Origin: Lentisphaeraceae bacterium
GTDB taxonomy: Bacteria; Verrucomicrobiota; Lentisphaeria; Lentisphaerales; Lentisphaeraceae
DNA: 64,000 bases
Direction: 5' to 3'
Assembly: GCA_021232515.1 (NCBI GenBank)
Contig: JAJPOQ010000002.1
Location: forward strand, 1-64,000
The notes below the pieces were generated by a model that was given only the letters and a program-made list of their open reading frames with translations, ran no database searches and had not been told where the DNA came from. How positions within the stretch are numbered: position 1 is the stretch's first letter; the number at the start of each line of letters is the position of its first letter. Below, in pieces: positions 673 through 19,117 of the stretch. The translations under genes were made by a program, and so were the position numbers.

Positions 673-698
673 AAAGGTTCTACCAATCTATGTGTTCC
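673..698 (+). promoter_or_regulatory. Bipartite promoter-like element, copy 1
   Basis: AAAGGTT (673-679), 14 bases, GTTCC (694-698), ending 22 bases before the ATG at 721. The same two halves with exactly 14 bases between them recur in front of several other genes in the first 20 kb. The function as an alternative-sigma promoter is inferred from this geometry. Confidence 0.5.
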
Positions 699-720
699 CT
701 TACTAAACGAGAGGAAACAT

Positions 721-1521
721 ATGAAAAAATTTACACTTATAGAACTATTGGTTGTTGTTGCCATCATCGGCATCCTCATGACTATTCTACTCCCTTCATT
801 AACAAGAAGTCGCAATGAAGCAAAGTCTGTTATTTGCCTTAGTAACTTAAGAAACCTTTCTTTTGGTAACCTCCAACATGCACAAGACAACAATGGTGCA
901 TTTGCCAAAACACAACATACATCTCCTGGTATTTTTACGGGTTGGGACTACAAACTAAAGAAATATCTCGGAAGAGACTATATACATAAACGTGAGACTG
1001 GTAAAAAGCCTGGTGGCATCGCTTGGTGCCCTGCCTTTGATGATCTTTCTTTTCAATACACAAAAGCCGGTGCATCAAAACTTCAAAAACCAAAACACGG
1101 AAACGATAGCAGAGGCGCAGCTAGTCGCAACCAAAAGATTTACACATCTTATGCCGTCAATCAATTTATGAGTAATATGCAGATGAATAATACTGGCTAT
1201 CCAGGAAACGGTGTAGATGGAGCTGGTTCTTGGTATAATTCAGGCAAGACTAATGTAAAAATTGTCGACATTGATTACCCAAGTGAAACCATGTTATATG
1301 TAGAAGCATTTGATGGCATGAAGCTCACAAAGTTTGCAGATGCATACTTCAATCCAAACCACTATGGTCGCCTGCCATTCGCAAAAACAGACGGGAGCTC
1401 GGGTGTTGTACACTATAACTCTGTAGTCAATGACGGTAAAAACCTTAATACTGGTAACTTTAATGGTCTAGAAGACTGGGAAATAAGATTTTGGGGATGC
1501 TACGTCAGCCCTAAGTTTTAA
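721..1521 (+). CDS. Prepilin-type N-terminal domain protein with H-X9-DG motif
   Basis: The 266-residue product opens with a type IV pilin/type II secretion methylation motif (KKFTLIELLVVVAIIGIL), so a prepilin peptidase should cut just before the Phe and leave a hydrophobic N-terminal helix. The C-terminal half carries NPNH, nine residues, then DG, which is the H-X9-DG signature of a prepilin-associated family common in Planctomycetes, Verrucomicrobia and Lentisphaerae. The role of these multi-copy proteins is not known; secretion-system pseudopilins or surface proteins are the usual guesses. The start is supported by the GAGAGG ribosome site at 710-715. Three paralogues lie at 1987, 18258 and 19139. 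Confidence 0.85.
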   Translation: MKKFTLIELLVVVAIIGILMTILLPSLTRSRNEAKSVICLSNLRNLSFGNLQHAQDNNGAFAKTQHTSPGIFTGWDYKLKKYLGRDYIHKRETGKKPGGIAWCPAFDDLSFQYTKAGASKLQKPKHGNDSRGAASRNQKIYTSYAVNQFMSNMQMNNTGYPGNGVDGAGSWYNSGKTNVKIVDIDYPSETMLYVEAFDGMKLTKFADAYFNPNHYGRLPFAKTDGSSGVVHYNSVVNDGKNLNTGNFNGLEDWEIRFWGCYVSPKF

Positions 1522-1545
1522 AAATCACACATACACGCACACGAT

Positions 1546-1576
1546 CGAGAGTCGATTGAAAAATCGGCTCTCGTTT
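1546..1576 (+). terminator. Hairpin terminator after first pseudopilin gene
   Basis: A 12-bp stem (1546-1557 with 1562-1573, one G-U pair) closes on a GAAA tetraloop and is followed by a short T run. It is preceded by a CA-rich tract (1525-1542), a feature repeated before the next two terminators. Confidence 0.7.
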
Positions 1577-1608
1577 CCATAAAATAGATTTTTTTTGAAA
1601 TTTACAGT

Positions 1609-1634
1609 AAAGGTTCATTATCCTCGATTGTTAC
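1609..1634 (+). promoter_or_regulatory. Bipartite promoter-like element, copy 2 (no ORF downstream)
   Basis: AAAGGTT (1609-1615), 14 bases, GTTAC (1630-1634). The second half differs from the consensus GTTCC by one base. The next feature downstream is not a gene but a CA tract and terminator. Confidence 0.45.
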
Positions 1635-1635
1635 C

Positions 1636-1750
1636 ATATATAAGAAGCAACTGAACTTATCAAAGTTCATATAAGTCTTCAAACATTCTCAACACACACA
1701 TACCACACACACACGAATAAAAGCCGGCTGTCCAGCCGGCTTTTATTTTA
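1636..1750 (+). ncRNA. Candidate small RNA, unit 1
   Basis: Predicted only from layout: a promoter-like element ends at 1634, a weak hairpin (ACTTAT with ATAAGT) lies at about 1654-1675, a CA tract at 1691-1714, and the transcript would end at the terminator near 1750. There is no start codon with a ribosome site and no ORF of useful length. Boundaries are approximate and no known RNA family was recognised. Confidence 0.3.
1719..1748 (+). terminator. Strong terminator of mini-unit 1
   Basis: An 11-bp perfect stem (1719-1729 with 1734-1744) with GC-rich core GCCGGC and a 4-base loop, flanked by A run and T run, so it could act in both directions. Confidence 0.8.
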
Positions 1751-1796
1751 TATATAGACTTGAAACTAAAATAGAAACTTTATTCAGAAAGTCAGT

Positions 1797-1822
1797 AAAG
1801 GTTCACTATCCTCTATTGTTCC
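1797..1822 (+). promoter_or_regulatory. Bipartite promoter-like element, copy 3 (no ORF downstream)
   Basis: AAAGGTT (1797-1803), 14 bases, GTTCC (1818-1822), a perfect match to the consensus. The surrounding bases closely match those around copy 2, so the unit is a duplication. Confidence 0.5.
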
Positions 1823-1828
1823 ACTATA

Positions 1829-1922
1829 TGAAGCAACTAAAATTGCCTCAGTAGATTTATTCTACACTCACACACACACGCAAAAATCGGGAATAGACGA
1901 AAGTCTATTCCCGATTTTTTTT
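1829..1922 (+). ncRNA. Candidate small RNA, unit 2
   Basis: Layout as in unit 1: promoter-like element, a small hairpin (GTAGA, TTTAT loop, TCTAC at about 1850-1864), a CA tract at 1865-1879 and a very strong terminator. No ORF. The 5' end is a guess from the position of the element. It could instead be a gene remnant. Confidence 0.3.
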
Positions 1923-1923
1923 T
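1883..1923 (+). terminator. Very strong terminator of mini-unit 2
   Basis: A perfect 16-bp stem (1883-1898 with 1903-1918) capped by GAAA and followed by a run of T to 1923. It lies upstream of the next gene's own element, so it separates the unit from the gene at 1987. Confidence 0.85.
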
Positions 1924-1935
1924 AAAGTTTGCATC

Positions 1936-1961
1936 AAAAGTTGTGCCCCTCTATTTTAACT
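1936..1961 (+). promoter_or_regulatory. Degenerate bipartite element before second pseudopilin gene
   Basis: AAAAGTT (1936-1942), 14 bases, TAACT (1957-1961), 25 bases before the ATG. The first half is close to AAAGGTT. The second half is poor, and the placement is supported mainly by spacing and by a shared CCTCTATT just before it, as in copy 3. Confidence 0.3.
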
Positions 1962-2816: not shown

Positions 2817-3434
2817 CTACTTAGCGACACCAGTTGAGTATTTAAGGTTTCTAAATGAAGCGACGCCTTTAGTCGTAAAAACCATCTTATCTTTGTTTGC
2901 GCCAAAGTGATCATTTACTTTTTTATTGAAAATCACTTTACCATTTAAGTGTACGACCATATTCGCCCCTAAATACTCCAGAGTCACTTTGCTCCAAACT
3001 GAAGGACTTAAAGTTGCATATTTCTTCACTTTACCCGCATTCCTCAAAGTCTTTCCTGCCTGACTTCCGGCAATAACTATCGCTCTGCCCTCTTTAAAGA
3101 AAACAAGTCTTAGTTTGTGATCATTTGTCTTCGCATCATCTAAAACTAGCTGACAGTTCTTGCCGTCTTCTATGCGAAACTCAAACTCGATCACGCCATC
3201 TTTACATTCTTGAATAAGGTATGCAGCAGGTCCATGTTTTTGACCTTCAGTAGGCTTTCCTGTTAAAACACCATCTTTTATCGTCCATGCCCCTTTCCCC
3301 TTTACCTTATCGCCAAACTCACCTGAAAAAGCATTCTCTAAAACAGGCTTAGTTGAGCTAAATAACTGCAAGTTTTCATCTTGAGCGAAAACCGATCCAG
3401 AGACGAGCATAAATAGGAGTATTTTTTGAATCAT
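2817..3434 (-). CDS. Secreted DUF1080-like (3-keto-disaccharide hydrolase-like fold) protein
   Basis: Product of 205 residues with a signal peptide (residues 1-17, cut near VFA). The body has the beta-sandwich pattern of DUF1080/LamG-like proteins: KGKGAWTIKDGVLTG, an IEFEFRIEDG strand, a VVHLNGK strand and a closing SFRNLKY. It lacks the LFNGKDLSGW opening of canonical DUF1080 members. It is the last gene of a three-gene operon, about 11 bases after its neighbour. A role in sugar binding or hydrolysis outside the cytoplasm is inferred from the family only. Confidence 0.6.
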   Translation of the reverse strand: MIQKILLFMLVSGSVFAQDENLQLFSSTKPVLENAFSGEFGDKVKGKGAWTIKDGVLTGKPTEGQKHGPAAYLIQECKDGVIEFEFRIEDGKNCQLVLDDAKTNDHKLRLVFFKEGRAIVIAGSQAGKTLRNAGKVKKYATLSPSVWSKVTLEYLGANMVVHLNGKVIFNKKVNDHFGANKDKMVFTTKGVASFRNLKYSTGVAK

Positions 3435-3445
3435 GAAATTTACCT

Positions 3446-4036
3446 TTAATTATTTTTTGAGAGCTTAAAGTTTTTAAAAGAAGCCTTGCCACTTACGACT
3501 AGGTTTAGTTTATTTTTCGGTCCGCTAAAAGACGCGTTGACCTGACCTTTGATTAACTCTTTTGAATCTATGCTCACAGATATAGAATTATCTAAATAAG
3601 CAATTTTTGCTTTATACCATTTATCGAGACTGAAGTTACTAATTTTAGTGCTTTTGCCTACAGCCTTAAATAACTTTTGCTTTTGTGAGCCAGCACGTAA
3701 ATCAACGGTACCGTTACTGCTCACGCCAAACCTAAGTTTGGTGTCTTTCTTACCTTTCTGATTCATAAGTTTCATGAAGATTCCCTTGCCCTCTTCAATC
3801 TTAAACTCAAATTCTACTATGCTATTTGCACAATCGGCTTTTATACCGATCCCCGCCACATGTTTATCTTCTGGTAATTCTAGACCGTTTAGTACGCCAG
3901 CAGTAACAGTCCATCGACCTTTGCCCTTTACCCAACCCTGTAAAGAATTGTTATCGAAACCTGACTTCAGTACTTCAGCAGCTTGAGTCTCCCATAAACT
4001 CAAGCTCAAAATAACAATGCTAAGCAGCACTTTCAT
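3446..4036 (-). CDS. Secreted DUF1080-like protein, paralogue
   Basis: Product of 196 residues with a signal peptide (about 1-19). It shares with the downstream gene the order KGKGRWTVTAGVLNG, VEFEFKIEEGKG, a KLRFGV strand and a final SFKNFKL, so the two are paralogues. Its start overlaps the stop of the upstream DUF1080 gene by one base, a sign of translational coupling. No catalytic residues can be named with confidence. Confidence 0.6.
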   Translation of the reverse strand: MKVLLSIVILSLSLWETQAAEVLKSGFDNNSLQGWVKGKGRWTVTAGVLNGLELPEDKHVAGIGIKADCANSIVEFEFKIEEGKGIFMKLMNQKGKKDTKLRFGVSSNGTVDLRAGSQKQKLFKAVGKSTKISNFSLDKWYKAKIAYLDNSISVSIDSKELIKGQVNASFSGPKNKLNLVVSGKASFKNFKLSKNN

Positions 4037-4857
4037 TATTTTTTCTCTTCAGGAAGTTCAAGAATCTCAATATTTTTATACATAACTTCAGCGCCTTCAC
4101 ACTGAAAACCTATCTTTCCTTCTAATAATGGTTTCCAAGTATTCTTTTTTTTGCGCTTATACTCACCAACAGGATACTCAAGGCCTATCGCCTCCATGAC
4201 TTTTAAACCATTTACATAGAAAGTTGCATTGCCACCGATAACGACAGCTTCAACTGTATTCCAGATATATAAGTAATCGTTTTGGTGGCTTTTAAGGGTA
4301 CGTCCTCTAAACTCAACGAGTTGAACATTTTCCGAATTCTCGTCGTACTTATAGAAGTGATTTTTATCGCGCTGAAACTTTACTGCCGAACTCTTGATCT
4401 TAGCTCGTGGACCAATGAAGTGAAAGTCACCTGTATCCGTCTCTTGTATCTGACACTCAACAGAAAGCGGCCAAGCACCACCCCGCCAGTTATTTCGATT
4501 GTCATCATAAGCATGAACTAAAAGACCCGTGTCACGCTTAACATACTTTCTAGGAGCGAAACGCTTCTCCCCCCATTTATACTCAAACCTAAGTCGATAG
4601 TTCTTATAAGACTTTTTACTCATAATCACACCATACTCAATCATTTCATCTGGGTGAGTATCTTTGTAAATATGTAAATTGCCTTCGTGTACAGAAAAGT
4701 ACTTCCCTAGGTCCTTATTGGTGTCTTGACCTCTTATGGCTATATCCCAACCTGAAAGGTCTTTGCCATTGAACAAACTTTGCCAGTTTTCCTTTTTCTC
4801 TTCAGCATTTAAAAATACCGAAAACAAAAAGATACATATAATGGATAGTAGTTTCAT
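4036..4857 (-). CDS. Secreted DUF1080 protein (3-keto-disaccharide hydrolase family)
   Basis: Product of 273 residues with a signal peptide (1-18). The family hallmark WQSLFNGKDLSGWD follows at about residue 25, then a Y-LRFEYKWG strand, a DTGLLVHA turn and SVECQIQE near the middle, all typical of DUF1080 (PF06439). Some family members cleave 3-keto-glycosides made by Gfo/Idh-type oxidoreductases; such partners are absent here. It is the first gene of a three-gene minus-strand operon, with a promoter-like bipartite element 23 bases upstream. Confidence 0.85.
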   Translation of the reverse strand: MKLLSIICIFLFSVFLNAEEKKENWQSLFNGKDLSGWDIAIRGQDTNKDLGKYFSVHEGNLHIYKDTHPDEMIEYGVIMSKKSYKNYRLRFEYKWGEKRFAPRKYVKRDTGLLVHAYDDNRNNWRGGAWPLSVECQIQETDTGDFHFIGPRAKIKSSAVKFQRDKNHFYKYDENSENVQLVEFRGRTLKSHQNDYLYIWNTVEAVVIGGNATFYVNGLKVMEAIGLEYPVGEYKRKKKNTWKPLLEGKIGFQCEGAEVMYKNIEILELPEEKK

Positions 4858-4880: not shown

Positions 4881-4906
4881 GGAACAAATGAAATGAAGAC
4901 GCCTAT
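4881..4906 (-). promoter_or_regulatory. Bipartite promoter-like element before DUF1080 operon
   Basis: Read on the minus strand: ATAGGCG, 14 bases, GTTCC (forward 4881-4885), ending 23 bases before the ATG. The spacing and the distance to the start match the pseudopilin copies; the first half is degenerate. Confidence 0.4.
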
Positions 4907-5029
4907 ACTCATCATTGAATTATTTTATCAAGTATATTTCCGCATCAAAGAGAACCTGGGGTAAAATTCTCATTCACCAAAAAGCTTAGATTATAAAGTA
5001 TGGGTTTAGTAACACTCTGAATATTTTTT

Positions 5030-6326: not shown

Positions 6327-8798
6327 TTACTGTGTTGCTTTAAGACTCAGAGTATCGATTTCGATACTCGAGTTGCCAACATTACTCAAAACAAGATCGT
6401 TCTCACCTGCTTTGAGATTTACTTCAACACTGAAGTTAGACCATCCTTCGGATTCAGTAAAAAGTGCATTACTCGGTAAAAATGAATCATTTACTAAAAG
6501 CTCCATTTCATTTGTTTCAGCCATAAGAGAATAACCGAACACAAGTGTGTACTTCCCTGTTTCTGGAACATTCACCGTCCAACCAGCAAAGCCACCTTTA
6601 GCAATAACTGCATAATTATCGCCAGATGAACCCGCTACAGAAGAGTCGGCTGCGGCATTTGACAGCAGAGCGCTTTCAGCTTCTTGAGAGTTACTCGCAT
6701 CTACACTTGAAACTAACTCAAAGCTCTCGATATCTAGTAAAGTTTTTAAACCGCCTTCAAAAGTGAAGTATAGATCTTGAGCTCCAACTGTTTGGCCAAT
6801 AAAACAGTGAACGTCTATAAAGTTGAACCAGCCGCCAGTATTTGGGACATAAACACTACCAAGTATCTCGCCGTTACGGCCTCCCAATCGACACTGAATC
6901 GTACCGCCATTTCGGCCACTAGAAACTTCAAACTTTATTGTGTCTCTACCATTCTCAAAGTCGACTTCATAACCAAGCCAGCTATTCGCTTTTACATGGC
7001 CTTTGGTATTTAGATTGTTAGAGTCAAAAAAGCTCGAAGCATTGTAAACTATCGGTTCAGATGGACCTGGGTTCGGATCTGTCGTGTCGCCACCAAATTC
7101 AAAATAGTCGATATGGACTGCTGCCCCTCGACACTCAACTGTTATGGTGTGTGAACCAGCTGACAATCCTTGTTTTGTAAAAACTAGTTGTTGCTGCTCA
7201 TTATTACCATTTAGGTTAATGTCCGTTGGTGATCCTCCATCAACTGAAACTCGGATCGTATTGCCATTTGTAGCAGTCTTACAATAAAGTTTTATCCAAG
7301 TTCCTTCGAAGTCGAGAGTCGCTTTGGCACCAATCGTCTTACTCCAATGAAGCGTATCGTTATGAGCGCCTTTGGTGTACTTATTTGCTCGATCTAAGCC
7401 CCAGCCATTATAAGTGATGGCTGAACTGTTGTCATCGACAATAGTCCCTTCTGGATCTGGAATAACAACATCTTCTTCAACGGTGATTTTTAAAGTCTTA
7501 GATGTTTTCGCACCTAAGTTATCTGTCACAACTAACTTAGCTGTGTGAGTACCGATTTTTGTATATTTATATGTTGTATTCTTCATATTTGCAGAGTTGC
7601 CGCTACCGTCTCCAAAAGTCCATTTGTAAGACTTTATGCCATCACTATCTGAAGCTGTTGCAGAAAAGCTAACTGTCAACGGAGCAAAACCTGAAGTTAA
7701 GTTTGCCGAAATACTGACTACTGGAGGAAGGTTTGGTTCTGGCTCTCCACCACCTGGCAGTGTATGAACCTTGACGTTTTTACCACCCCAGCCACTATGT
7801 TCAACCCACCAATCTTCGTGACCACCGCCACAAACGTGGAGTTTGCCATTTAGAGGTTTAGCTAATGAACTTGTTATGTGAGCTGGCATATTGCCATAGA
7901 GTGACCATGTATTGTTACTTGGATCATAAGTATAAATCTCGTTTTGAACATCGCGAGCACTATAGTTAATCCCACCAACAGACCAGATTTTGCCTTGATG
8001 AACAAATGTCGCCCACTCTGCATGTGAACGTTTTTTCGGTAATGACGCGACCTGAATCCAAGAATTATTAGCTGGATTATAGCAGAAAACTTCCGCACGG
8101 TCTCTGTCATGTGAGTGACGTTCTTCGCCACCGATAAGGTAAATCTTACCCTTTAAACCAACGACAGCAGCGTGTCCTCGTTTAGGTGCTGCGGCGGCAT
8201 TTTGCCAACCAGCTGCTTCATTATTTAAATCTAGAACCCAGTGGTTATCGAAAGCATATTTCTTTTTTATCTCACCAGTCGTCAGACCATCAACTTTAGA
8301 ATAGAAATACCCACTAACATAGTGAAGTTTATTTCCAACTATGGCAGTAGCTCCTGACCAACGTCTTTGCGGTAGACTAGGACCTTGACGCCATGTTTTC
8401 GTTCTTGCATTAAAAACAAAGACTTTATTATGTGCGCGGTAAGCAGCGTTTTTACCTCCACAAATCCAGACTTCATCGCCGTTGACACTATTACCAGCAG
8501 TAAAATGGTTATTGGTAGATATCTGTGAAGGAAAGGAAGAAACTATGGTCCACTTTTTAGTCGCTGGATCATACTCTCTAACATGGTCGTCAAACTGATC
8601 TGGCTTTATAGTCCACATCCTGCCAAATGTATAGTGTTTTCCATTTACTACAGCATTGCCAACTTCGCCCATCGAGCGTTGCATGTCGACTCCATCTGTG
8701 AATGACAATTCTGCCTTAGCACTAGAACCTAAAACTAGCAGCGCCAAAAACCATTGCAGGTTTATTCTTGAGCGGCTACCTATCGCTTTTCTGTTCAT
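6327..8798 (-). CDS. Secreted mosaic protein: kelch propeller, PKD, carbohydrate-binding modules
   Basis: Start placed at MNRKAIG (8798), which has a GGTG ribosome site and gives a proper signal peptide; the ORF runs 19 codons further upstream but that part lies in promoter-like sequence. The 823 residues carry kelch repeats (about 25-345, with GKIYLIGGEE, GKIWSVGG and GKLHVCGGG), a PKD domain (about 356-443, with WTFGDGSG), a domain with IVDDNSS and HIDYFEF (about 452-567), a CBM6-like domain (about 584-695) and a second galactose-binding-like domain (about 705-823). The likely role is glycan binding at the cell surface or in exopolymer. From the PKD domain on it is nearly the same as the gene at 13142. 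Confidence 0.8.
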   Translation of the reverse strand: MNRKAIGSRSRINLQWFLALLVLGSSAKAELSFTDGVDMQRSMGEVGNAVVNGKHYTFGRMWTIKPDQFDDHVREYDPATKKWTIVSSFPSQISTNNHFTAGNSVNGDEVWICGGKNAAYRAHNKVFVFNARTKTWRQGPSLPQRRWSGATAIVGNKLHYVSGYFYSKVDGLTTGEIKKKYAFDNHWVLDLNNEAAGWQNAAAAPKRGHAAVVGLKGKIYLIGGEERHSHDRDRAEVFCYNPANNSWIQVASLPKKRSHAEWATFVHQGKIWSVGGINYSARDVQNEIYTYDPSNNTWSLYGNMPAHITSSLAKPLNGKLHVCGGGHEDWWVEHSGWGGKNVKVHTLPGGGEPEPNLPPVVSISANLTSGFAPLTVSFSATASDSDGIKSYKWTFGDGSGNSANMKNTTYKYTKIGTHTAKLVVTDNLGAKTSKTLKITVEEDVVIPDPEGTIVDDNSSAITYNGWGLDRANKYTKGAHNDTLHWSKTIGAKATLDFEGTWIKLYCKTATNGNTIRVSVDGGSPTDINLNGNNEQQQLVFTKQGLSAGSHTITVECRGAAVHIDYFEFGGDTTDPNPGPSEPIVYNASSFFDSNNLNTKGHVKANSWLGYEVDFENGRDTIKFEVSSGRNGGTIQCRLGGRNGEILGSVYVPNTGGWFNFIDVHCFIGQTVGAQDLYFTFEGGLKTLLDIESFELVSSVDASNSQEAESALLSNAAADSSVAGSSGDNYAVIAKGGFAGWTVNVPETGKYTLVFGYSLMAETNEMELLVNDSFLPSNALFTESEGWSNFSVEVNLKAGENDLVLSNVGNSSIEIDTLSLKATQ

Positions 8799-8902: not shown

Positions 8903-8928
8903 GTTCCAGAAAAAGGGCAAAGGTAACA
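8903..8928 (-). promoter_or_regulatory. Bipartite element, TGTTACC/GGAAC type
   Basis: Minus strand: TGTTACC, 14 bases starting TTTGCC, GGAAC. The same element with the same spacing occurs before the FG-GAP mosaic gene and the sigma gene. Confidence 0.45.
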
Positions 8929-9107: not shown

Positions 9108-10412
9108 CTAGCCTATTTCACTTAGAACCTTAGTTCCATGACCATGAAGGTCTTGCTGCTTTATATCGAACTTATGAAGTATGGTTAAAAGTAAGTCGGC
9201 AAGTTTTCGGTCACCTGAGATATTTACAGATTTACCTGTTTTGAGTTTACCTCCAGCACCACCGCCGATAAGTAAAGGAATGTTCTTCATATCGTGAATG
9301 TTACCATCGCTCAAACCTGAGCCAAGAAGAATTAAGCTGTTATCCAACATAGAACCATTCCCCTCATCGACTTCATCCATCTTCTTCATTAATTCATAAG
9401 TCATCTTCACGAACCAACGAGAAATATTATTGTAGGCATCTATACCTTTTTGCTCACCGCGATGGTGCGACTTCGCATGGTGGTTTCCTCCACCTTTGAG
9501 GAAGTTGTAATTTAATTGACTGATACTGACACCGTACATCATGGTTGCCACACGTGTCGTGTCTGTCCACAAACCCAAAAGTATAAGATCCAGCATAAGC
9601 TTGACATACTCTTCATGACCATTGGGCTGTCCAGTAATCTTATAGTCTTCCAACTTCGGCTCTGACTTCGGATACCAACTCTTTTTAGGTGGATTCAGAG
9701 TTTTGTTCAGTTTCAGTTCTACACTTCTAAGACTTTCAAAATACTGAGCCATCTTTGACTTATCATTTTTACTGACCTTTTTGTTCATGTACTTAGCTTG
9801 TGTCCAAACACTATCGACAATATTCTTTTGACGATTTATCGCTTTTTTAGCACCTGGAACTCGATGTCCAAATAAACTATCGAAAGCCGTACTTGGGCTT
9901 AACTCTGGTTCTATCTTAAAACCTGAAAATGAACGTGAGATAGAACTACCATGAGACTTAGCAATAGGTCCATTAAAACCTTGTAGCGCCGCTTCAACAC
10001 CTAAGTGAAGCGATGGTAAAAACGACTCTTCCTGGTACTTCTTAGCAATGATTTGGTCGATAGATACTTTTGACTTGATGATTCGTTGACCGTTTGGATG
10101 GTGATAACCATTTAAAAAACTCAGAGCATTTTTTATATGACCACCTGGGTGAAAAAGTTTATTCACCGTCATCACTTTATCTTTCAAAGGATTCATCGGC
10201 TCAAGGACACCACCAAGCTTAAAACTCTTTCCTGAACCAGAACTGTCCCATGCACCTGGGTACACGCCATTTGGAAAATAAAGCGTCACGAAACGTTGAG
10301 GAGGTTGAGCTTTTCGTTCTCCAGCGCCCATAACTTCCAAGTAAGGTAGAGCTACGGAAACACCAGCAGCTTTAAGAAGAGTTCTTCTATCTAGTAACCA
10401 ATTCTTTCTCAT
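9108..10412 (-). CDS. DUF1552 family secreted protein
   Basis: Product of 434 residues. The N-terminus DRRTLLKAAGVSVALPYLE is a twin-arginine-like export signal. The body matches the DUF1552 family: VTLYFPNGVYPGAW, FLNGYHHP, SIDQIIAKKY, and LLGSGLSDGN followed by NIPLLIGGGAGGKL near the end. DUF1552 genes almost always sit beside DUF1592 cytochrome genes in Planctomycetes and relatives, and the start here overlaps the stop of such a gene by four bases (ATGA), so the two are co-translated. The biochemical role is unknown; some relation to extracytoplasmic electron transfer is assumed from the partner. Confidence 0.85.
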   Translation of the reverse strand: MRKNWLLDRRTLLKAAGVSVALPYLEVMGAGERKAQPPQRFVTLYFPNGVYPGAWDSSGSGKSFKLGGVLEPMNPLKDKVMTVNKLFHPGGHIKNALSFLNGYHHPNGQRIIKSKVSIDQIIAKKYQEESFLPSLHLGVEAALQGFNGPIAKSHGSSISRSFSGFKIEPELSPSTAFDSLFGHRVPGAKKAINRQKNIVDSVWTQAKYMNKKVSKNDKSKMAQYFESLRSVELKLNKTLNPPKKSWYPKSEPKLEDYKITGQPNGHEEYVKLMLDLILLGLWTDTTRVATMMYGVSISQLNYNFLKGGGNHHAKSHHRGEQKGIDAYNNISRWFVKMTYELMKKMDEVDEGNGSMLDNSLILLGSGLSDGNIHDMKNIPLLIGGGAGGKLKTGKSVNISGDRKLADLLLTILHKFDIKQQDLHGHGTKVLSEIG

Positions 10413-12985
10413 AAGTTCTCCTTCTGAAGTTGCTGATTCAAAAATGGGTAAGACTGGACGACGGCTTCAATTAAGAAAAATGATTTATCGCCACTTGCCT
10501 TCACTTTGGCAATGATCTTCTGGATCGCAGGCTCATCGTAGTACTGAAGTTTACGACCCAGTGCAAAAGCTAAAACTCTTTCAACAAGGTTTCGACGGAT
10601 TTCATCTTTCTTATATTTCATCAAGTAAGACTTAAACTCGGCTACAGTTTTTGTTTTCTGACCAGTCTTTAAAATCATTGAAGAATCAATAGGCTTATGA
10701 TTGCCCTCTTCTTTTTCTCGCCAGCGACCGATCTGATCATAGTTCTCTAAAGCGAAGCCATATGGATCTATACGCGAGTGGCAGCCAGCACAACTAGCAT
10801 TTTCACGGTGTCGCTCAAGAATTTGCCGAACTGTTTTCGGACTCTTATTTTTAGCTGGAATCTCCGGTACATCATCTGGTGGAAGTGGTAACTCTTCACC
10901 GAAAATAGTCTCAACAATCCAAGCCCCACGAATAACCGGACTCGTTCTTTCTGGCAGTGAAGTCGAATTCAAAATGCCACCCATAGTCAGTAATCCACCA
11001 CGTCGTTTATCTCGAAGCTTAACCAAGCGCATTTCGTCGCCCTTCACTCCTGTTATACCATACTTTTTTGCTAGGGTTTGATTTAAAAAAGTATAGTTAG
11101 GGTCGATCAGCTCAAAGATATTTCGATTCTCTTTAAAGATCTTTCTAAACAGCAATTCTGGTTCTTTAAGTAACTGTTCCTTTATGTAACGCGAAACACC
11201 TGTTACGCCATTTATATTTAGCCATTCATGAGTAAATGAACGACAAAAGGAATCGAACTTGTCACTATTAATCATTCGTTGAAGTTGCTGTCTAAGAACT
11301 TTTGGATCGTTTATTTTTGCTGTATGTGCAGCTCTTAAAAGTGTTACGTCCGGAACTGTTTGCCATAGGAAGTAAGACAATCTGGAGACTTTCTGAAAGT
11401 CATCTATCTCTGTTCCTTTTTCTGGAAGGTCATTTCTTAATAAAAGAAAATTTGGTGAGGTCAAAAGAGAGATAAGACTATCCCGCAGTGCAACATCGTA
11501 ACTTCTAGTTTCTTTGAAAGTTAAATCATAAACTTTTAAAATAGGAGTCAGCTCTGCATTAGTCACTTTCTTGCGAAAAGCTCTTATTGCCAAGTAGCGA
11601 ATGATTGTCTCGGCACTTTTGCGAGTTTTGGGCATACTTAAGTATTTTTTAGGGTCTTGCGAATTTTCACTTAAAAATGGACCTGAGAATGAAAAGCTAT
11701 ACAAGTTCAAAGGATCGAGGCTGTCGTTATCTTGTCCATAAAGTTTATTGAACTTCTCATAATAACGGTCAGATGCCTTACTACACTCTTTAACTAAGTC
11801 TCGACCTATTGCGTCGGCAATCATCTTACGCATTTCCTTGCCAGACTTCTTAAAGATAACTTCAGCTTTTTTACACTCTAAAACTCGACTTAAACCATAG
11901 AGTTGTGAACGGTCATCTGGCAAAGGGTTTTGCTTTAATAGTACGTCAACAGCCATGATGCCACGGTAGGCTTTTTGTATCTTCTGGTTGATCTCTCGAT
12001 AAGCTACTTGATAGTTTTTATTGCCTTTATGCTTGGCTGGTATTTCCATACGCGGGTAAGCTCTTGCTGCTTTTGAGATCTCGCGAATAGTCTCTCCTTT
12101 TACCTTATGCTGAATACGGCCATCGTTATAAATGGCTGCACTGGTCTTACTAAAATGTATGACCACTGTCCCCGCTCCTTTTTCAACAAAAACTGGGAAC
12201 TCATAAGTTTGGGCTTTCTCTCCAGCAACTGATTGGTGATAGACCGCAACGTTATTTATCATGACCATAAAGCCTGTAACATTCTTCCTCGAAGCCTGAG
12301 CATTTACAGTCATTTTATAAACACCGGTAAATGGAAACTCTATTGCTTCTGTATGTGACTTGTTGTTCCTTAGCATCGCTGGCTTATCGCCTTTACCAAG
12401 CTTAAATGTCTTCGACCAAGGCTTGTTTTTATAGGACAAGAAAGCATCGGCATATCTTGAAGCTTCCCCAAAATACTTATTGAGTGAACTAATCGACATA
12501 CCTAGGTTATCTCGATCATTTGTAAAACCTGAGTCGCCCTCTGCGTCTTTGATAAAGGCCGACTTCTTATGAAAGTCTATACGGAAAACATCTTCTACAG
12601 AGTTGGTGTACTCTTTATTGGTCAATCTAGCTAAGCTTACATAACCTGGGTTTTTGATCTTGCTCCAGTCGTAGTTATTTAAAGTGCTATCCAGCCAGCG
12701 TACTACTCTGTCTAGATCTGCTTGTGGCAAGTAAGGCTTTTTCGGAGGCATCTCTTTCGATTTGATTTGCTCAAGAACTCGCAACCACTCTTTGCGGTGT
12801 TGAATAACGTGATCTTCAGTAAGTACCTGATCTAGTCGTAAGTCGCCTTTTTGAACATCTTCATCGTGACATTTATAGCAATACTTTTCGATAATCGGCT
12901 TAACCGTACTTTCAAAAGAAGCAGCGTCTATAGACTGAATAAAACACAGAGAAAGAATAACCAAGATATGTAAGTGCAGCTTCAT
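10409..12985 (-). CDS. DUF1592-type planctomycete cytochrome c
   Basis: Product of 858 residues with a signal peptide (1-21). An N-terminal haem site CYKCH (about residue 36) is followed by a DUF1587-like region (about 100-165), a beta-rich insert that may bind carbohydrate (about 195-300), DUF1595/DUF1592 regions (about 455-650), DUF1588 with SPVIRGAWIVETIFGEELP (about 690-760) containing a second haem site CAGCH near 732, and DUF1585 at the end. It is a predicted periplasmic dihaem protein of unknown substrate, paired with DUF1552. A bipartite promoter-like element lies 37 bases before the start. Confidence 0.9.
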   Translation of the reverse strand: MKLHLHILVILSLCFIQSIDAASFESTVKPIIEKYCYKCHDEDVQKGDLRLDQVLTEDHVIQHRKEWLRVLEQIKSKEMPPKKPYLPQADLDRVVRWLDSTLNNYDWSKIKNPGYVSLARLTNKEYTNSVEDVFRIDFHKKSAFIKDAEGDSGFTNDRDNLGMSISSLNKYFGEASRYADAFLSYKNKPWSKTFKLGKGDKPAMLRNNKSHTEAIEFPFTGVYKMTVNAQASRKNVTGFMVMINNVAVYHQSVAGEKAQTYEFPVFVEKGAGTVVIHFSKTSAAIYNDGRIQHKVKGETIREISKAARAYPRMEIPAKHKGNKNYQVAYREINQKIQKAYRGIMAVDVLLKQNPLPDDRSQLYGLSRVLECKKAEVIFKKSGKEMRKMIADAIGRDLVKECSKASDRYYEKFNKLYGQDNDSLDPLNLYSFSFSGPFLSENSQDPKKYLSMPKTRKSAETIIRYLAIRAFRKKVTNAELTPILKVYDLTFKETRSYDVALRDSLISLLTSPNFLLLRNDLPEKGTEIDDFQKVSRLSYFLWQTVPDVTLLRAAHTAKINDPKVLRQQLQRMINSDKFDSFCRSFTHEWLNINGVTGVSRYIKEQLLKEPELLFRKIFKENRNIFELIDPNYTFLNQTLAKKYGITGVKGDEMRLVKLRDKRRGGLLTMGGILNSTSLPERTSPVIRGAWIVETIFGEELPLPPDDVPEIPAKNKSPKTVRQILERHRENASCAGCHSRIDPYGFALENYDQIGRWREKEEGNHKPIDSSMILKTGQKTKTVAEFKSYLMKYKKDEIRRNLVERVLAFALGRKLQYYDEPAIQKIIAKVKASGDKSFFLIEAVVQSYPFLNQQLQKENL

Positions 12986-13022: not shown

Positions 13023-13048
13023 GGAACAAAGCTGGGCAGCCGACCTAT
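13023..13048 (-). promoter_or_regulatory. Bipartite promoter-like element before cytochrome operon
   Basis: Minus strand: ATAGGTC, 14 bases, GTTCC, 37 bases before the ATG. The TTTGTTCCAC context equals that upstream of the sigma gene. Confidence 0.45.
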
Positions 13049-13080
13049 ACAGAGAAAAGCTTATTAATTGATATGAAACA

Positions 13081-13141: not shown

Positions 13142-15763
13142 TTATTCAACAGATCTGATATTCATTGAATCTATTTCGATAGAACTGTTACCTGTGTTAC
13201 TTAAGATCACATCATTTTCACCGGCTTTAAGCTCAACATCTATACTGAACTTCGACCAGTCTTCCGATTGAGAAAATAACATGTAAGTTGGCAGTGAAGA
13301 ATCGTTAAGCACTAATTCCATACCATTACTTTCTGCCATAAGAGCGTAATCGAAAACCAATGTGTATTTGCCTGCTGATGGAGCATTTACAGTCCAAGCC
13401 GTAAAACCACCTTTAGCAATAACTACATAACCACCACCTGACGAACCAGAGACTGTGGAGTCTGCAGCTGCGTTGGAAAGAAGTGCAGTTTCTGCTTCTA
13501 AAGCGCTATTCGTCGCACTACTTGAAACTAACTCAAAACTTTCGATGTCTAGTAAAGTTTTCTGACTACCTTCAAAAGTGAAGTATAGATCTTGAGCTCC
13601 GATTGTTTGACCGATAAAGCAGTGAACTTCTATGAAGTTGTACCAACCACCTGTATTTGGGACAAATACGCTTCCAAGAACCTGACCATCGCGACTTCCA
13701 AGTCGACACTGAATGGTACCGCCGTTTCGGCCACTAGAAACTTCAAGTTTAACTGTGTCTCGACCATTCTCAAAGTCGACTTCATAACCAAGCCAGCTGT
13801 TTGCTTTTACGTGACCTTTTGCATTTATGTTATTCGAAGTAAAAGAGTTCGAAGCATCGTAAGGAATAGGTTCTGATGGACCTGGGTTTGGATCAGGATC
13901 AGGATCTGTTACATCACTACCAAATTCAAAGTAATCGATGTGTACAGCGGAACCACGGCCTTCAACTGAAATAGTATGAGAGCCTTCACTGAAACCTTGT
14001 TTATTGAAAACTAGCTGCTTCTGTTCGCCATTTCCTTTCAGGTCTATTTCTTTATAAGCCCCGCCATCGATTCGAACGCGAATCTTATTGCCATTTGTTG
14101 CTGTTTTGCAGTATAACTTGACCCAAGTACCTTCGAAATCCAGAATAGCTTTTGCTCCAGACTGAGTACTCCAGTGAAGCGTATTGTTATGAGCACCTTT
14201 GGTATATTTATTATTTTTATCTAGTCCCCAATTACCTTGATACACAACATTTGAACTGTTGTCATCGACGATAGTTTTCTCTGGGTTTGGTTCTGGATCA
14301 ATAACTTCTTCTTCAACTGTGATTTTAATCGTCTTAGTAGTCGTGGCGTTTTTATTATCAGTCACAACTAGCTTTGCAGTATGAGTACCAACTTTTGTAT
14401 ATTTGTATGTTGTGTTCTTCGTATTTGCAGAGTTACCGCTGCCATCACCAAAAGTCCATTTGTATGACTTGATGCCGTCGCTATCTGAAGCTGTCGCAGA
14501 AAAACTAACAGTAAGTGGCGCAAAACCTTTAGTTAAGTTTGCTGAGATGCTTACTGACGGTGGAAGATTTGGTTCACTTCCAGAATGTAGATTTCTATAC
14601 ATGAATGTATTTCCTGTATAGTTTTCACAACCAACTATGTCTAGGTCACCATCGTTATCCATGTCGATAATCGCACTTGAGTAAAGACCTTTGCCATTTA
14701 TCACAGTTTTAGGTGAACCAAAGTTACCTTTACCGTCGTTATAGAAAACACGAATAGTTTTAGGGTCCCAAGCTTGTCCTGTAACTGCGTCAAGATCACC
14801 GTCGTTATCCATATCGGCCAATTTCACTTGGTGCATACGGTTTGTGTTACTTTCTAGAACTTTCTTAGACCAGTTAGTATTGTTCGTGTTACCTGGATTT
14901 TTATACCAAGCAAGAATGTGATTCCCTCCTTTACGGAAAGTTTCAGCTGGTCCCATAAGTATATCATTGAGACCATCACCATCTATATCACCAATGGCTT
15001 CTTTTGTATTTTGATTAACAGTGTGATAGTTGGAATCCATTTTCAATCTTGTGTAACTCTGTGTACGAGGGTTACTTGGAGACTTATACCAAAATCCAGA
15101 AGCTTCGATGTCTGGAAAACGGTCATTATCAATCTTGCCAACAGTTAAACCTTCTGAGTCTGGTAATTGAGTACTAATTGACTTTCTTTGCCAAGAGCTA
15201 AGATTGTTCTGATAGAAAACGTGAATTTCATTTGGCTCTAAACTGCGACAAACAATATCGAGCTTACCGTCGTCATCCATATCGGCAATCTCCATATCAT
15301 TTATATGGTGCCAAGGCATAGTTTTTGACGTCACTTGTTCAAAGGCCCAGTTTTGAGTAACTTTATCTTTACCTGGATTAATGAAAACCCAAACTTCAGC
15401 TTCCTTCGTTGAACCGGAGTGTCGGTCTGAACTAATCGCAATATCTAGATCGCCATCGCCATCGAAGTCTGCCAGTTTTGCTGAACCAAGAAACTTTCTC
15501 AATGACTTATTGGTATTGACGTTGTGCTTAACCCAGCTACCATTTGCTTTCTGTTCGACCCAAGCAAAGACTTTACCAGCGCCATGAGCTGAGCCACCAA
15601 CAAGTAGTATGTCTGTTAAACCATCTTTATTTATATCGCCGGCATCAACAGCCGAGTGACCAAAGGTTCCTGCGTTTACATCTATGGGACCTGACCAATC
15701 AGCTGCCATAGAGTTCATTCCAAGTCCCAGCATCGCTGAGAAAAATAAGTTTTTAAAACCCAC
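13142..15763 (-). CDS. Secreted mosaic protein: FG-GAP propeller, PKD, carbohydrate-binding modules
   Basis: A GTG start at 15763 is preferred because AGGAG lies eight bases upstream and a clean signal peptide follows (GFKNLFFSAMLGLG...SMA); an ATG 12 codons earlier (15799) is the alternative. About 873 residues: an FG-GAP/VCBS beta-propeller with six or more calcium-loop repeats of the DxDxDGxxD type (about 22-395), a PKD domain (about 400-485), the IVDDNSS/HIDYFEF domain (493-613), a CBM6-like domain (633-748) and a final galactose-binding-like domain. The C-terminal half is nearly the same as in the kelch protein at 6327. The likely location is outside the cytoplasm, binding glycans. Confidence 0.8.
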   Translation of the reverse strand: MGFKNLFFSAMLGLGMNSMAADWSGPIDVNAGTFGHSAVDAGDINKDGLTDILLVGGSAHGAGKVFAWVEQKANGSWVKHNVNTNKSLRKFLGSAKLADFDGDGDLDIAISSDRHSGSTKEAEVWVFINPGKDKVTQNWAFEQVTSKTMPWHHINDMEIADMDDDGKLDIVCRSLEPNEIHVFYQNNLSSWQRKSISTQLPDSEGLTVGKIDNDRFPDIEASGFWYKSPSNPRTQSYTRLKMDSNYHTVNQNTKEAIGDIDGDGLNDILMGPAETFRKGGNHILAWYKNPGNTNNTNWSKKVLESNTNRMHQVKLADMDNDGDLDAVTGQAWDPKTIRVFYNDGKGNFGSPKTVINGKGLYSSAIIDMDNDGDLDIVGCENYTGNTFMYRNLHSGSEPNLPPSVSISANLTKGFAPLTVSFSATASDSDGIKSYKWTFGDGSGNSANTKNTTYKYTKVGTHTAKLVVTDNKNATTTKTIKITVEEEVIDPEPNPEKTIVDDNSSNVVYQGNWGLDKNNKYTKGAHNNTLHWSTQSGAKAILDFEGTWVKLYCKTATNGNKIRVRIDGGAYKEIDLKGNGEQKQLVFNKQGFSEGSHTISVEGRGSAVHIDYFEFGSDVTDPDPDPNPGPSEPIPYDASNSFTSNNINAKGHVKANSWLGYEVDFENGRDTVKLEVSSGRNGGTIQCRLGSRDGQVLGSVFVPNTGGWYNFIEVHCFIGQTIGAQDLYFTFEGSQKTLLDIESFELVSSSATNSALEAETALLSNAAADSTVSGSSGGGYVVIAKGGFTAWTVNAPSAGKYTLVFDYALMAESNGMELVLNDSSLPTYMLFSQSEDWSKFSIDVELKAGENDVILSNTGNSSIEIDSMNIRSVE

Positions 15764-15841
15764 TTTTAGCACTCCTATACTTTTAACATTCTGCATCATA
15801 AAGACAAAAAATGATGAAGTTTTTCATCTATTCAGGAGTTA

Positions 15842-15867
15842 GTTGCCGGAGCGTCAAAAAGGTAACA
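15842..15867 (-). promoter_or_regulatory. Bipartite element, TGTTACC/GGAAC type (one mismatch)
   Basis: Minus strand: TGTTACC, 14 bases, GCAAC. It is preceded by an AT-rich stretch ending in ATCACTGTTACC, very like the TGACTGTTACC before the sigma gene. Confidence 0.4.
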
Positions 15868-16028: not shown

Positions 16029-17483
16029 TTATTGGGCTAGTTCTCTTATTTGTACTGGCGTCAATGCTTTTCTAAAGATACGCAAGTCATCTATTTCACC
16101 GGCAAATGGTCTCGATGTTGGATCTCCAGGGTTACCGCCAATCCAAACTGGTTTTGAGCCATTGCGATTTATATTTCCAGTCTTAGCTTCACGTGATATT
16201 TCTTTACCATCTAGATAAAGAATCATTGCTTTCCCATCATAAACTGCGGCAACATGAATCCACTCGCCTACTTTCAAATCCTGTGGATCTGAAATTAAGA
16301 TACTAGTTTTATCACTAGTAGTTAAACGGAAGCGAATACCGTGACCATCCCCAGACGGATAAGGACTCAACATAAATACATGATGAAGGCCTTTAGTTTT
16401 ATTTGGTGTGACTTTAGAAATAATGCGACCTTCTCCACTTAATCCCTCAAGTGTGCGAATTTTGATCCAGCTAGATATAGTCATGACATTTGAGTTTACA
16501 TCAAACTTTCCGGCATCGACATAATCATCTATACCGTCAAAAGTTAGAGCACCTTTTCTTTTGCCTAAAACTCTCTTAGCGCCATGGATAATGGCATCAT
16601 TACCATGTTCAGATACATCTTCGGCAACATCTCCGAAACCACGGTCAAAATCCCAGAAAGCGACATAGTTATTGCTGTTTGGTACTCTTGATCGACTCAA
16701 GAACCTTTTATGATTTGCATCGGCATATTCTCGTTTATTCACCAAGACCGTTTTTTGATCTGAGTGACGTATATACTCAACTCGGCCTTCATAAACATCT
16801 AATCGCGAGTGGTGGTCACTCTTCGATACTTCTAAAACTGTACCTAAAACTCTTGCTGTAGATTTCGCAGTATGAACTAACAACGGATCGCCAGCTTTCT
16901 GCTTTATAACATCCAGGTGTACATGACCAGTTTCCAGATGAATACTTTTCGTACTCGTTCCTTTATTTAAAGTCATAAGAGAGTCTGAAGAAAGTTTAAC
17001 TAAAGTACCGTCTGTATAATTCATATAAACACGAGAACCTTCTCCCGTTTTTATCTGGTCCCCGAGTGAAAGCACGTCGCCTTTTTTCACATTTGCGCTA
17101 TTGCCATAAACTTTTTCAACAACTAAACGATCATAGACAATACTGTCTACTGGTCCTTGTTTTCTTAGCAGGACAAAAGCAAAAATGATCGATGCGGCTA
17201 TGGCAACACCAATCCAAGGCAGAACTACAGGAGCTTTCTTTTTCTTCTTACGAGAAACCCGACTCAGTTTATTTGTCTTGATCTTCTTTTTAACTGTCTT
17301 TACTTTTTGAGACTTCTCTTGTTCAAAGACATCCAACAAAGTTGCTTCTTCGTGCATAAAGTCTACCAAACGAGCCCGATTTATAGGGTCTTCCAAGTAG
17401 ACCTCGAGCTCTCTAACTTCTTCTTCAGTAATATCCCCGGAACTGAATGCAAGAAGTAAATCTTCTAAGCGTTCATCAATCAT
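16029..17483 (-). CDS. FecR-domain membrane protein with C-terminal LamG domain (putative anti-sigma factor)
   Basis: The start is set at MIDERLEDLL (17483); the ORF runs 47 codons further, but that part overlaps the sigma gene in another frame. The 484-residue product has a soluble N-terminus resembling anti-sigma regions (1-60), a basic KKKKK stretch and one membrane helix (about 90-108), a FecR domain (about 135-245, with GDQIKTGEGSRVYMNYTDGT and RLDVYEGRVEYI) and a Laminin-G/concanavalin-like domain (about 280-484, with LTFDGIDDYVD, GEWIHVAAVYDG and FAGEIDDLRIF). The layout suggests sensing of an outside glycan and control of the sigma factor, whose stop overlaps this start (ATGA). Confidence 0.8.
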   Translation of the reverse strand: MIDERLEDLLLAFSSGDITEEEVRELEVYLEDPINRARLVDFMHEEATLLDVFEQEKSQKVKTVKKKIKTNKLSRVSRKKKKKAPVVLPWIGVAIAASIIFAFVLLRKQGPVDSIVYDRLVVEKVYGNSANVKKGDVLSLGDQIKTGEGSRVYMNYTDGTLVKLSSDSLMTLNKGTSTKSIHLETGHVHLDVIKQKAGDPLLVHTAKSTARVLGTVLEVSKSDHHSRLDVYEGRVEYIRHSDQKTVLVNKREYADANHKRFLSRSRVPNSNNYVAFWDFDRGFGDVAEDVSEHGNDAIIHGAKRVLGKRKGALTFDGIDDYVDAGKFDVNSNVMTISSWIKIRTLEGLSGEGRIISKVTPNKTKGLHHVFMLSPYPSGDGHGIRFRLTTSDKTSILISDPQDLKVGEWIHVAAVYDGKAMILYLDGKEISREAKTGNINRNGSKPVWIGGNPGDPTSRPFAGEIDDLRIFRKALTPVQIRELAQ

Positions 17484-18007
17484 ATGCCGGCCTCCTCCAA
17501 CCGAACCAAAATACATTTCCTCAGTGCTTTTCGTATACGACTCATTAGCATTTTTACCGAATCCGTGGACTTCCCGAACTTCTCTCCAATAGTCTTCATG
17601 TCCATACTTTTCGAATAACGGCACTTAAGCAAGCTGCGATTGTTTTCAGGTAAATTCCCTAAACACTTTCGCAGTGCATCTCTATTGGCGGAGTGACGAG
17701 CTTCTTCTTCTGTACTTTCTTCAAAAGCTTGTTCTACAAGGTCCAGTATATCACTGTTTACTAAAACCTTATCTCGACGATTCGATCGCCAAAACTGCAA
17801 AACTCGGTTTCTTGCAACGCCACGACACCAACGGTCTAATTTATCGATAACTACATCTTTTTCTTGAGCCTTTGAAAACTGGAGCCATACATCTTGAAAT
17901 ATGTCATCTGCAACGGAACTATCTCTTACCATGCCATAAATATAGGCCGTTAAAGAATGCCGTTGCGAGATAAACTCTAAAGATAATTTTTCCCAGTCTG
18001 AACTCAT
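17480..18007 (-). CDS. ECF-type sigma-70 factor
   Basis: The 175-residue length is typical of ECF factors. Region 2 lies at about 15-75 (LTAYIYGMVRDSSVADDIFQDVWLQF, then WCRGVARNRVLQFWR) and region 4 at about 110-168 (LPENNRSLLKCRYSKSMDMKTIGEKFG with a helix-turn-helix ending in MSRIRKALRKC). It resembles the Rhodopirellula/Verrucomicrobium ECF family (TIGR02989) that is common in PVC bacteria. The partner is the membrane FecR/LamG protein downstream. Two different bipartite elements lie in its upstream region, consistent with self-regulation, which is inferred. Confidence 0.9.
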   Translation of the reverse strand: MSSDWEKLSLEFISQRHSLTAYIYGMVRDSSVADDIFQDVWLQFSKAQEKDVVIDKLDRWCRGVARNRVLQFWRSNRRDKVLVNSDILDLVEQAFEESTEEEARHSANRDALRKCLGNLPENNRSLLKCRYSKSMDMKTIGEKFGKSTDSVKMLMSRIRKALRKCILVRLEEAGI

Positions 18008-18032
18008 ACTCTTCCATATTAATTACCTCTTT

Positions 18033-18058
18033 GTTCCCGGAGGAAGGCAAAGGTAACA
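18033..18058 (-). promoter_or_regulatory. Bipartite element, TGTTACC/GGAAC type, before sigma gene
   Basis: Minus strand: TGTTACC, 14 bases starting TTTGCC, GGAAC, 25 bases before the ATG. Confidence 0.45.
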
Positions 18059-18101
18059 GTCATTTTTGAAATTATTTTGATTTTTTTTCCTCTCGACTAG
18101 T

Positions 18102-18127
18102 GGAACAAAGGAAAATGGGCAACCTTT
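18102..18127 (-). promoter_or_regulatory. Bipartite element, AAAGGTT/GTTCC type, before sigma gene
   Basis: Minus strand: AAAGGTT, 14 bases, GTTCC, a perfect match to the pseudopilin-type element. It lies 94 bases before the ATG and upstream of the TGTTACC-type element. Confidence 0.5.
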
Positions 18128-18209
18128 ACTTGGTTAGTATGATCAAATGAATAATAAGCTCAGTTACGATCAAATAAATAAGATTCACAAAAGCTAAGCC
18201 TTGAGTAAT

Positions 18210-18235
18210 TAAGAAAAGTTTTCTTGTAGTGTTCC
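18210..18235 (+). promoter_or_regulatory. Bipartite-like element before third pseudopilin gene
   Basis: TAAGAAA, 14 bases, GTTCC, 22 bases before the ATG. The second half and the distance are as in copy 1; the first half differs but is the same as in the next copy. Confidence 0.4.
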
Positions 18236-18257
18236 ACTCTAAAAAAATAGTGTGGAT

Positions 18258-19079
18258 ATGAAAAAATTTACTTTAATTGAGCTTCTCGTCGTCATCGCAA
18301 TATTTGGAATACTGCTAACTCTGCTTTTGCCATCTCTACAAAGTGCCAGAAAGAAAGGCTTCACTACTGTTTGTATAAGCAATACTCGACAAATAACTAC
18401 TGGGAATCAGTTATTCAGTGCAGACAATAATAATGCTATTGTCAAAAGTTATTTTCGCGCCGACGGTTTTTATTGGGGTTGGCACTACAGCCTAGAAGAA
18501 TACTTAGGTAGTTCCTTCGCAAGTGACCGAAATGCCGACATTCCTTCAGAATCAACAAATATTGGCTACTGCCCAGCTTTCCATGATCTCACGTTTCAGT
18601 ATGTAAAACCCGGAGTTACAGTTTCACAATCGCCTCAATTTGGCTATGACTCTAAAAGAACTCCCAGCACAACACAACTGCGTTACCTTAGTTATGGAAT
18701 TAACGAATTTCTGAGTAATGAACTCATGCTACCAGCAGGATTCCCTGGAAACGGCCTAGGCTTTAGCGGGGATTGGTATAATCAAAACATGAAAAACACA
18801 AAGTTAACTCAAGTCGATTACCCTAGTGAGACAATGCTTTTCACTGAAACCTACCAATTCGAGAAACTTTCAAAGTGGAGCCGAGCATACTTTAACCCAA
18901 ACCACGACTCTTCTGTACCTTACTCAAGAGTTGATGGTAGTGCAACAGTCTTGAGATATAGCTCAATTACTAATGATGGAGTTGGTGTGGGTTCATCTGG
19001 CAATAAAATTCGAAATAGTTTAAGTGAAAAAGAGATACGACTTTGGGGAGCTTCTATAAGTCCAAATTTCGACAATTAG
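18258..19079 (+). CDS. Prepilin-type N-terminal domain protein with H-X9-DG motif
   Basis: The ATG at 18258 (MKKFTLIELL) is chosen over the in-frame GTG at 18252, matching the exact start of the paralogues; GTGTGG lies just before it. The 273-residue product has the prepilin cleavage motif, a hydrophobic helix, a conserved mid-region (YLSYGINEFLSN, GFPGNG) and an intact H-X9-DG (NH, eight residues after the His, then VDG). It forms a tandem pair with the next gene; the two share upstream sequence as well as coding sequence, so they arose by duplication. It is divergent from the sigma operon. Confidence 0.85.
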   Translation: MKKFTLIELLVVIAIFGILLTLLLPSLQSARKKGFTTVCISNTRQITTGNQLFSADNNNAIVKSYFRADGFYWGWHYSLEEYLGSSFASDRNADIPSESTNIGYCPAFHDLTFQYVKPGVTVSQSPQFGYDSKRTPSTTQLRYLSYGINEFLSNELMLPAGFPGNGLGFSGDWYNQNMKNTKLTQVDYPSETMLFTETYQFEKLSKWSRAYFNPNHDSSVPYSRVDGSATVLRYSSITNDGVGVGSSGNKIRNSLSEKEIRLWGASISPNFDN

Positions 19080-19091
19080 GTATTAATCAAT

Positions 19092-19117
19092 TAAGAAAAC
19101 TTTATTCGCAGTGTTCC
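19092..19117 (+). promoter_or_regulatory. Bipartite-like element before fourth pseudopilin gene
   Basis: TAAGAAA, 14 bases, GTTCC, 21 bases before the ATG. It is a near copy of the element at 18210, which argues that each gene of the pair has its own promoter. Confidence 0.4.

Follow-up and report, generated by a model that had tools for sequence, protein, structure and literature searches.

The window analyzed here comprises positions 1 to 64,000 of a 69.5-kb contig (C151; GenBank JAJPOQ010000002.1) of a Lentisphaeraceae bacterium, whose draft genome of 5.26 Mb is spread over 177 contigs and is ∼87% complete. Its first 20 kb hold pseudopilin genes, a DUF1080-type operon, a cytochrome operon of the PSCyt type, and a gene for an extracytoplasmic function (ECF) sigma factor that overlaps the gene of a putative anti-sigma factor; most of these units are preceded by a two-part, promoter-like element that we call m1 (Table 1). 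The sigma factor consists of sigma2 and sigma4 domains only, with PF04542, PF04545, and PF08281 all above their gathering scores within 175 amino acids, which assigns it to the ECF group. Its top NCBIfam model is TIGR02989 (Sig-70_gvs1, a Rhodopirellula/Verrucomicrobium family), at 113.7 bits and thus under the curated cut-off of 124.55. PSCyt cytochromes, DUF1552, DUF1080, and an ECF nearest to that family suggest by gene content a member of the PVC group, probably a Lentisphaera-like one. The overlapping gene encodes a FecR-LamG protein, the membrane segment of which was read by eye from the sequence.

An earlier note on this DNA had spelled the element AAAGGTT-N14-GTTCC and placed it at four positions. 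Three of these are exact, at 673 (+), 1797 (+), and 18102 (−), and make up all but one of the four exact matches in the whole genome, whereas the copy at 1609 carries one mismatch (GTTAC). With up to two mismatches, this spelling showed no excess over chance in the window (11 matches versus 8.4 expected), and at two mismatches genome-wide it was dropped because the signal was swamped (80 matches versus 56 in the control). Alignment of the sites placed the conserved blocks at GTAWAGG and GTTCC, 16 bases apart, and only with these refined boundaries does the signal in the window rise above chance. GTAWAGG-N16-GTTCC has five matches in the genome, all of them in the window (671+, 1795+, 4881−, 13023−, and 18102−), all intergenic and each pointing to a downstream unit; its reversed control has no match in the whole genome. 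The copy at 1607+, with GTTAC as its second half, is a sixth site. A looser form, RTWWAGR-N16-GTTCC, has 25 matches in the genome, 16 within long open frames and 9 in front of genes or gene-less units; seven of the latter are in the window and two precede distant PSCyt genes, on contigs C114 and C154. Counting the 1607 copy, the window has eight sites over ∼18 kb, every one intergenic although intergenic DNA makes up just 1,826 bp of the first 20 kb. The degenerate copies reported at 4881 and 13023 are therefore real and fit the refined pattern; those at 18210 and 19092 share 3 of the 7 bases of AAAGGTT, but ATTAAGA-N16-GTTCC at 18208 and 19090 fits the looser form, and the copy at 1936, whose second half reads TAACT (one base of five), found no support.

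Since some fitting of the m1 pattern to its sites had taken place, two controls were made independent of it. The first was an exhaustive dyad scan (7+5 bases) of the intergenic sequence at 83 loci, run without the AAAGGTT pattern; its largest dispersed cluster was GTAAAGG-16-GTTCC, with six sites in the window, and the four loci with larger clusters contain closely spaced repeat arrays. In the second, ECF upstream regions of other loci were swapped in as the reference; in not one of 1,896 swaps were five other sites found in a foreign locus, the number that the upstream region of the window ECF finds in its own. We conclude that m1 is a real, strikingly locus-confined, promoter-like element. 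That its recurrence is a by-product of duplication of tandem pilin cassettes, or of chance, seems most improbable. The sites before the pilin genes at 18258 and 19139 do lie in a duplicated 48-nucleotide (nt) block (79%), and the two gene-less units of the locus, A and B, resemble each other, but the copies at the ECF gene, the DUF1080 and PSCyt operons, and the distant PSCyt genes precede unrelated genes that have just the two halves in common, and chance is excluded by the genome-wide counts.

An alignment of ten sites is invariant at T..AG in the first block, at TGTT and C in the second, and at an A nine bases beyond it, which could be the transcript start. The spacer of 16 bases fits ECF promoters, and the geometry of an alternative-sigma promoter proposed in the earlier note holds, as does the statement that the halves match neither sigma-70 nor the classic ECF consensus: no match to TTGACA-N16-18-TATAAT coincides with the conserved halves, shuffles gave more sigma-70 promoter-like matches than the region itself (43.9 versus 31), and the AAC (−35) and CGT (−10) hallmarks are missing from m1 (RTWWAGR/TGTTCC), a hallmark pair that is said to define ECFs no longer (PMC8103513). 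Reading m1 on the opposite strand, as GGAAC-N14-AACCTTT with a classic ECF −35, was rejected, as no conserved block follows ∼16 nt downstream in that direction. With its conserved halves separated by some two helical turns, m1 might also serve as the operator of a two-domain or dimeric transcription factor, and the computed data are compatible with the binding of another protein. We nevertheless hold an operator to be very unlikely, the halves being neither a palindrome nor a direct repeat of each other; moreover, the 21 to 37 nt that separate m1 from most start codons leave no space for a separate downstream promoter, and no further DNA-binding regulator stood out among the open reading frames (ORFs) of the locus.

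All sites face a downstream gene or unit, as first noted, except that the copies at 1609 and 1797 precede ∼100-nt gene-less units with strong terminator hairpins rather than protein genes. The distance to the start codon is less uniform than claimed: the second half ends 21 to 23 nt before it in four copies (673, 4881, 18208, and 19090), not 21 to 25 nt in five, with 37 nt at the cytochrome operon and 94 nt at the sigma gene. The targets originally listed, namely, the pseudopilin genes (three), the DUF1080 operon, the cytochrome operon, and the sigma gene, all stand, and to them are added the two gene-less units and the two distant PSCyt genes, which have good copies 22 to 23 nt upstream, so that the m1 regulon is not purely local. 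The gene that follows the PSCyt gene in the cytochrome operon is DUF1552-like, as read from its sequence. The target on C114 has PSCyt1, DUF1587, and DUF1595 domains; the site on C154 is intergenic relative to the ATG, and an upstream TTG would stretch the open frame across it.

Table 1. Features of the locus (window coordinates).
Feature	Position	Strand	Context or support
m1, GTAAAGG-N16-GTTCC	671..698	+	before pseudopilin gene 721-1521, 22 nt to ATG
m1, GTAAAGG-N16-GTTAC	1607..1634	+	before gene-less unit A
m1, GTAAAGG-N16-GTTCC	1795..1822	+	before gene-less unit B
m1, GTATAGG-N16-GTTCC	4881..4908	−	before DUF1080-type operon, 23 nt to ATG
m1, GTATAGG-N16-GTTCC	13023..13050	−	before cytochrome operon, 37 nt to ATG
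m1, GTAAAGG-N16-GTTCC	18102..18129	−	before ECF gene, 94 nt to ATG
m1 variant, ATTAAGA-N16-GTTCC	18208..18235	+	before pseudopilin gene, ATG 18258, 22 nt
m1 variant, ATTAAGA-N16-GTTCC	19090..19117	+	before pseudopilin gene 19139-19954, 21 nt
m2, TGTTACC-N14-GGAAC	8903..8928	−	before Kelch/PKD/CBM6 gene 6327-8798
m2, TGTTACC-N14-GCAAC	15842..15867	−	before FG-GAP/PKD/CBM6 gene 13142-15763
m2, TGTTACC-N14-GGAAC	18033..18058	−	before ECF gene, 25 nt to ATG
Candidate small RNA A: 5' hairpin, CA-rich linker, 15-bp terminator hairpin + T run	1640..1752	+	fold −29.9 kcal/mol, z −7.4
Candidate small RNA B: two 5' hairpins, CA-rich linker, long terminator hairpin + T run	1827..1926	+	fold −35.0 kcal/mol, z −9.6
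Operon led by DUF1080/3-keto-disaccharide hydrolase gene (4036-4857) + two related small genes	2817..4857	−	ORFs, PF06439
PSCyt1/DUF1587/DUF1592/DUF1588/DUF1585 cytochrome gene + following gene 9108-10412	9108..12985	−	domain scan (PSCyt gene), ORFs
Putative anti-sigma factor: cytoplasmic N-terminus, one membrane segment, FecR, C-terminal LamG	16029..17489	−	PF04773, PF13385; overlaps ECF gene end
ECF sigma factor, 175 aa, sigma2 + sigma4 domains	17480..18007	−	TIGR02937 76.4 bits (cut-off 42.9), PF04542, PF04545

Units A and B are tandem and gene-less, ∼100 to 113 nt long, and each has an m1 site in front and an CACACACAC tract. Their folds make them candidate small RNAs that would be transcribed from m1. 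Neither has a homologue in the six relatives searched, and an Rfam search of the window gave no match. The pilin gene 721-1521 likewise ends in a CA-rich stretch and a hairpin (1524-1575). As a genome-wide signal, CA-rich tracts before terminators came to just three found downstream of genes. Elsewhere in the window, a long gene-less stretch with repeated 'cttgttgatcctgtctaatatctc' phrases (24380-23650, −) lies upstream of a second PSCyt gene.

A local, alternative-sigma-like regulon, as the earlier note had inferred, is well supported, because m1 is all but confined to the locus, intergenic, oriented toward downstream units, and spaced as in ECF promoters. Its assignment to the ECF factor encoded at 17480-18007 is the simplest reading: the promoter region of the ECF gene carries m1, and the locus yielded no other regulator. 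As a rule, an ECF drives transcription of its own gene and is restrained by an anti-sigma factor encoded alongside it (PMC8103513), and the m1 site in the upstream region of the ECF gene is what is expected of such autoregulated factors. Our working hypothesis, to which we give a probability of about 0.68, is that m1 comprises the −35 and −10 elements of a promoter recognized by this ECF, which would be held by the co-encoded membrane FecR-LamG protein and would control its own synthesis. A signal outside the membrane would release the sigma factor, and the freed holoenzyme would then transcribe from m1, with positive feedback through the site in front of the sigma gene. Its other outputs would be the three pseudopilins, the DUF1080 and PSCyt/DUF1552 operons, the pair of small RNAs that end in terminators, and the two PSCyt genes elsewhere.

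Besides the partial fitting of the pattern mentioned above, several observations weigh against this assignment. At the sigma gene, m1 lies farther from the start codon than at the other genes, and a second element, m2, stands nearer to it; m2 is likewise restricted to the window, and C151 starts at window position 1, so that a further sigma factor may be encoded immediately beyond the contig end. The window ECF has no close relative, the best being 32% identical, and forms a long, unplaced branch in the tree, so that its promoter specificity cannot be borrowed from a relative; tree placement failed for this purpose, and comparative footprinting via orthologues was ruled out on the same 32% limit. 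Furthermore, in a long-alignment test, private elements of the m1 type could not be demonstrated at the ECF loci of three related genomes, where own-locus matches were of low complexity only.

The second element, m2 (TGTTACC-N14-GSAAC), lies on the minus strand (Table 1); its strict form, GTTACCTTT-N11-GNAAC, has three of its four genome matches in the window. A short open frame (MTVTFAFLREQRGN) at 18019-18058 (−), in the leader between m1 and the ECF start, overlaps m2. The sigma gene could have two inputs; alternatively, m2 could be the promoter used by the local ECF, leaving m1 to an unseen sigma factor whose gene may lie immediately left of the contig end. We judge this alternative unlikely, although m2 lies 25 nt before the sigma gene and also precedes two large genes for surface proteins, and a distance of 25 to 54 nt to the ECF start is common among other ECF-proximal elements. 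In addition, the sigma4 recognition helix (SVKMLMSRIRKAL) resembles, by eye, that of the ECF of locus L101 (SIKVRMFRLRKSL), where the private element begins TGTAACC. However, m1 precedes the sigma gene too and has eight sites against three for m2, and no second ECF gene preceded by m1 was found in the assembled genome. Moreover, m2 resembles TGTAACA-N14-GGAA, the element that another ECF clade has before L094 (on C145 of this genome) and L154 (from the same genus), and m2 may belong to that sigma factor.

This resemblance suggests a cascade, compatible with the assignment of m1 to the local ECF, in which m2 would be served by a distant ECF such as that of C145. At the C145 ECF gene (L192), TGTAACA-N14-GGAAA stands 25 nt ahead of the start codon, and it recurs in front of PSCyt genes on C7 (L187) and C25 (L188), the sites lying 22 to 27 nt from start codons; together, these likely form a trans-acting ECF regulon. 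The main difference between m2 and the C145 element is TGTTACC versus TGTAACA. Nonetheless, a cascade is doubtful: the −35 differs at two positions, the m2 copies share an extra CTTT that is not seen at C145, and the likeness is one of short motifs only.

The genome contains 44 matches to the window ECF, and at several of these loci a private element is common to the ECF gene and a neighbour (L086, L100 with two pilins, L093 with one pilin, L101, L111, L087, L108, and L103). At L086, the dyad GGTCAGG-N16-CGTTA has the geometry of m1 in other letters and occurs at four sites (10507-10534, 14444-14471, 15782-15809, and 19254-19281, −) facing the ECF gene, a DUF1549/DUF1553 PSCyt gene, and two further genes. 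Across all ECF loci, dyad clusters are not in excess (at least two other sites in 13 of 79 loci versus 18% of swapped controls), and only the window locus, with five other sites, and L086, with three, stand out. The long-alignment test gave, in the genome of the window, seven own-locus matches of at least 24 bits versus 0.50 expected (P ∼1e-6), or four without the window (P ∼0.002), and own-locus matches face a gene more often (6/7 versus 3/20, Fisher P 0.002). Some pilin-only matches were discarded as coding-homology artefacts (L105). A further dyad, ACTGTCC-N16-GACTT, lies directly upstream of the ECF genes in L155 and L156, with a similar sequence in L158 (all three from a same-genus genome) and in L104. 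The generalization to other ECF loci is thus a lead, not a result. In its broadest form, each of the 40-odd gvs1-like paralogues would have a promoter of its own, in common with the pilin/PSCyt modules next to it and a few distant PSCyt genes, m2-like elements would cross-wire the circuits, and the ECF of this locus would drive the small-RNA pair; we regard this picture as tentative and rather unlikely as a whole.

The arrangement is ordinary ECF biology in kind. As in the autoregulated ECF/anti-sigma circuits reviewed in PMC8103513, a sigma2-sigma4 protein is encoded with an overlapping membrane partner, and a two-part, promoter-like element precedes its own gene and the putative targets; m1 differs in its −35 and −10 letters, which lack the hallmarks of that review, and the targets here are pseudopilins, PSCyt cytochromes, and candidate small RNAs. 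The ECF/anti-sigma pairs of Bacteroides polysaccharide utilization loci also come as many paralogues per genome in surface- and glycan-gene loci (PMC12596196); distant targets have been reported for them, and a TGTT motif near −10, as at m1, was noted for SigW-1 targets (PMC12596196). These pairs belong to another phylum, and here PSCyt, DUF1552, and pilin genes stand in place of SusC/SusD, and a TonB receptor was not seen. The paralogous sigma-I factors of cellulolytic clostridia are not ECFs, and their promoters are described as three motifs (PMC6056542). What is new is the private promoter word, the PSCyt, pilin, and small-RNA targets, and a possible second sigma input.

Planctomycete-type (PSCyt/PSD) cytochromes, DUF1552/DUF1501 proteins, and large pseudopilin families are abundant in these bacteria. 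A defined promoter that would link PSCyt, DUF1552, and pilin genes to one ECF and its putative FecR-LamG sensor partner offers a testable handle on which of these genes act together and on the signal perceived by the LamG domain. Although this bacterium has some 44 similar sigma factors, their circuits may stay apart through unique promoter words, each confined to one locus.

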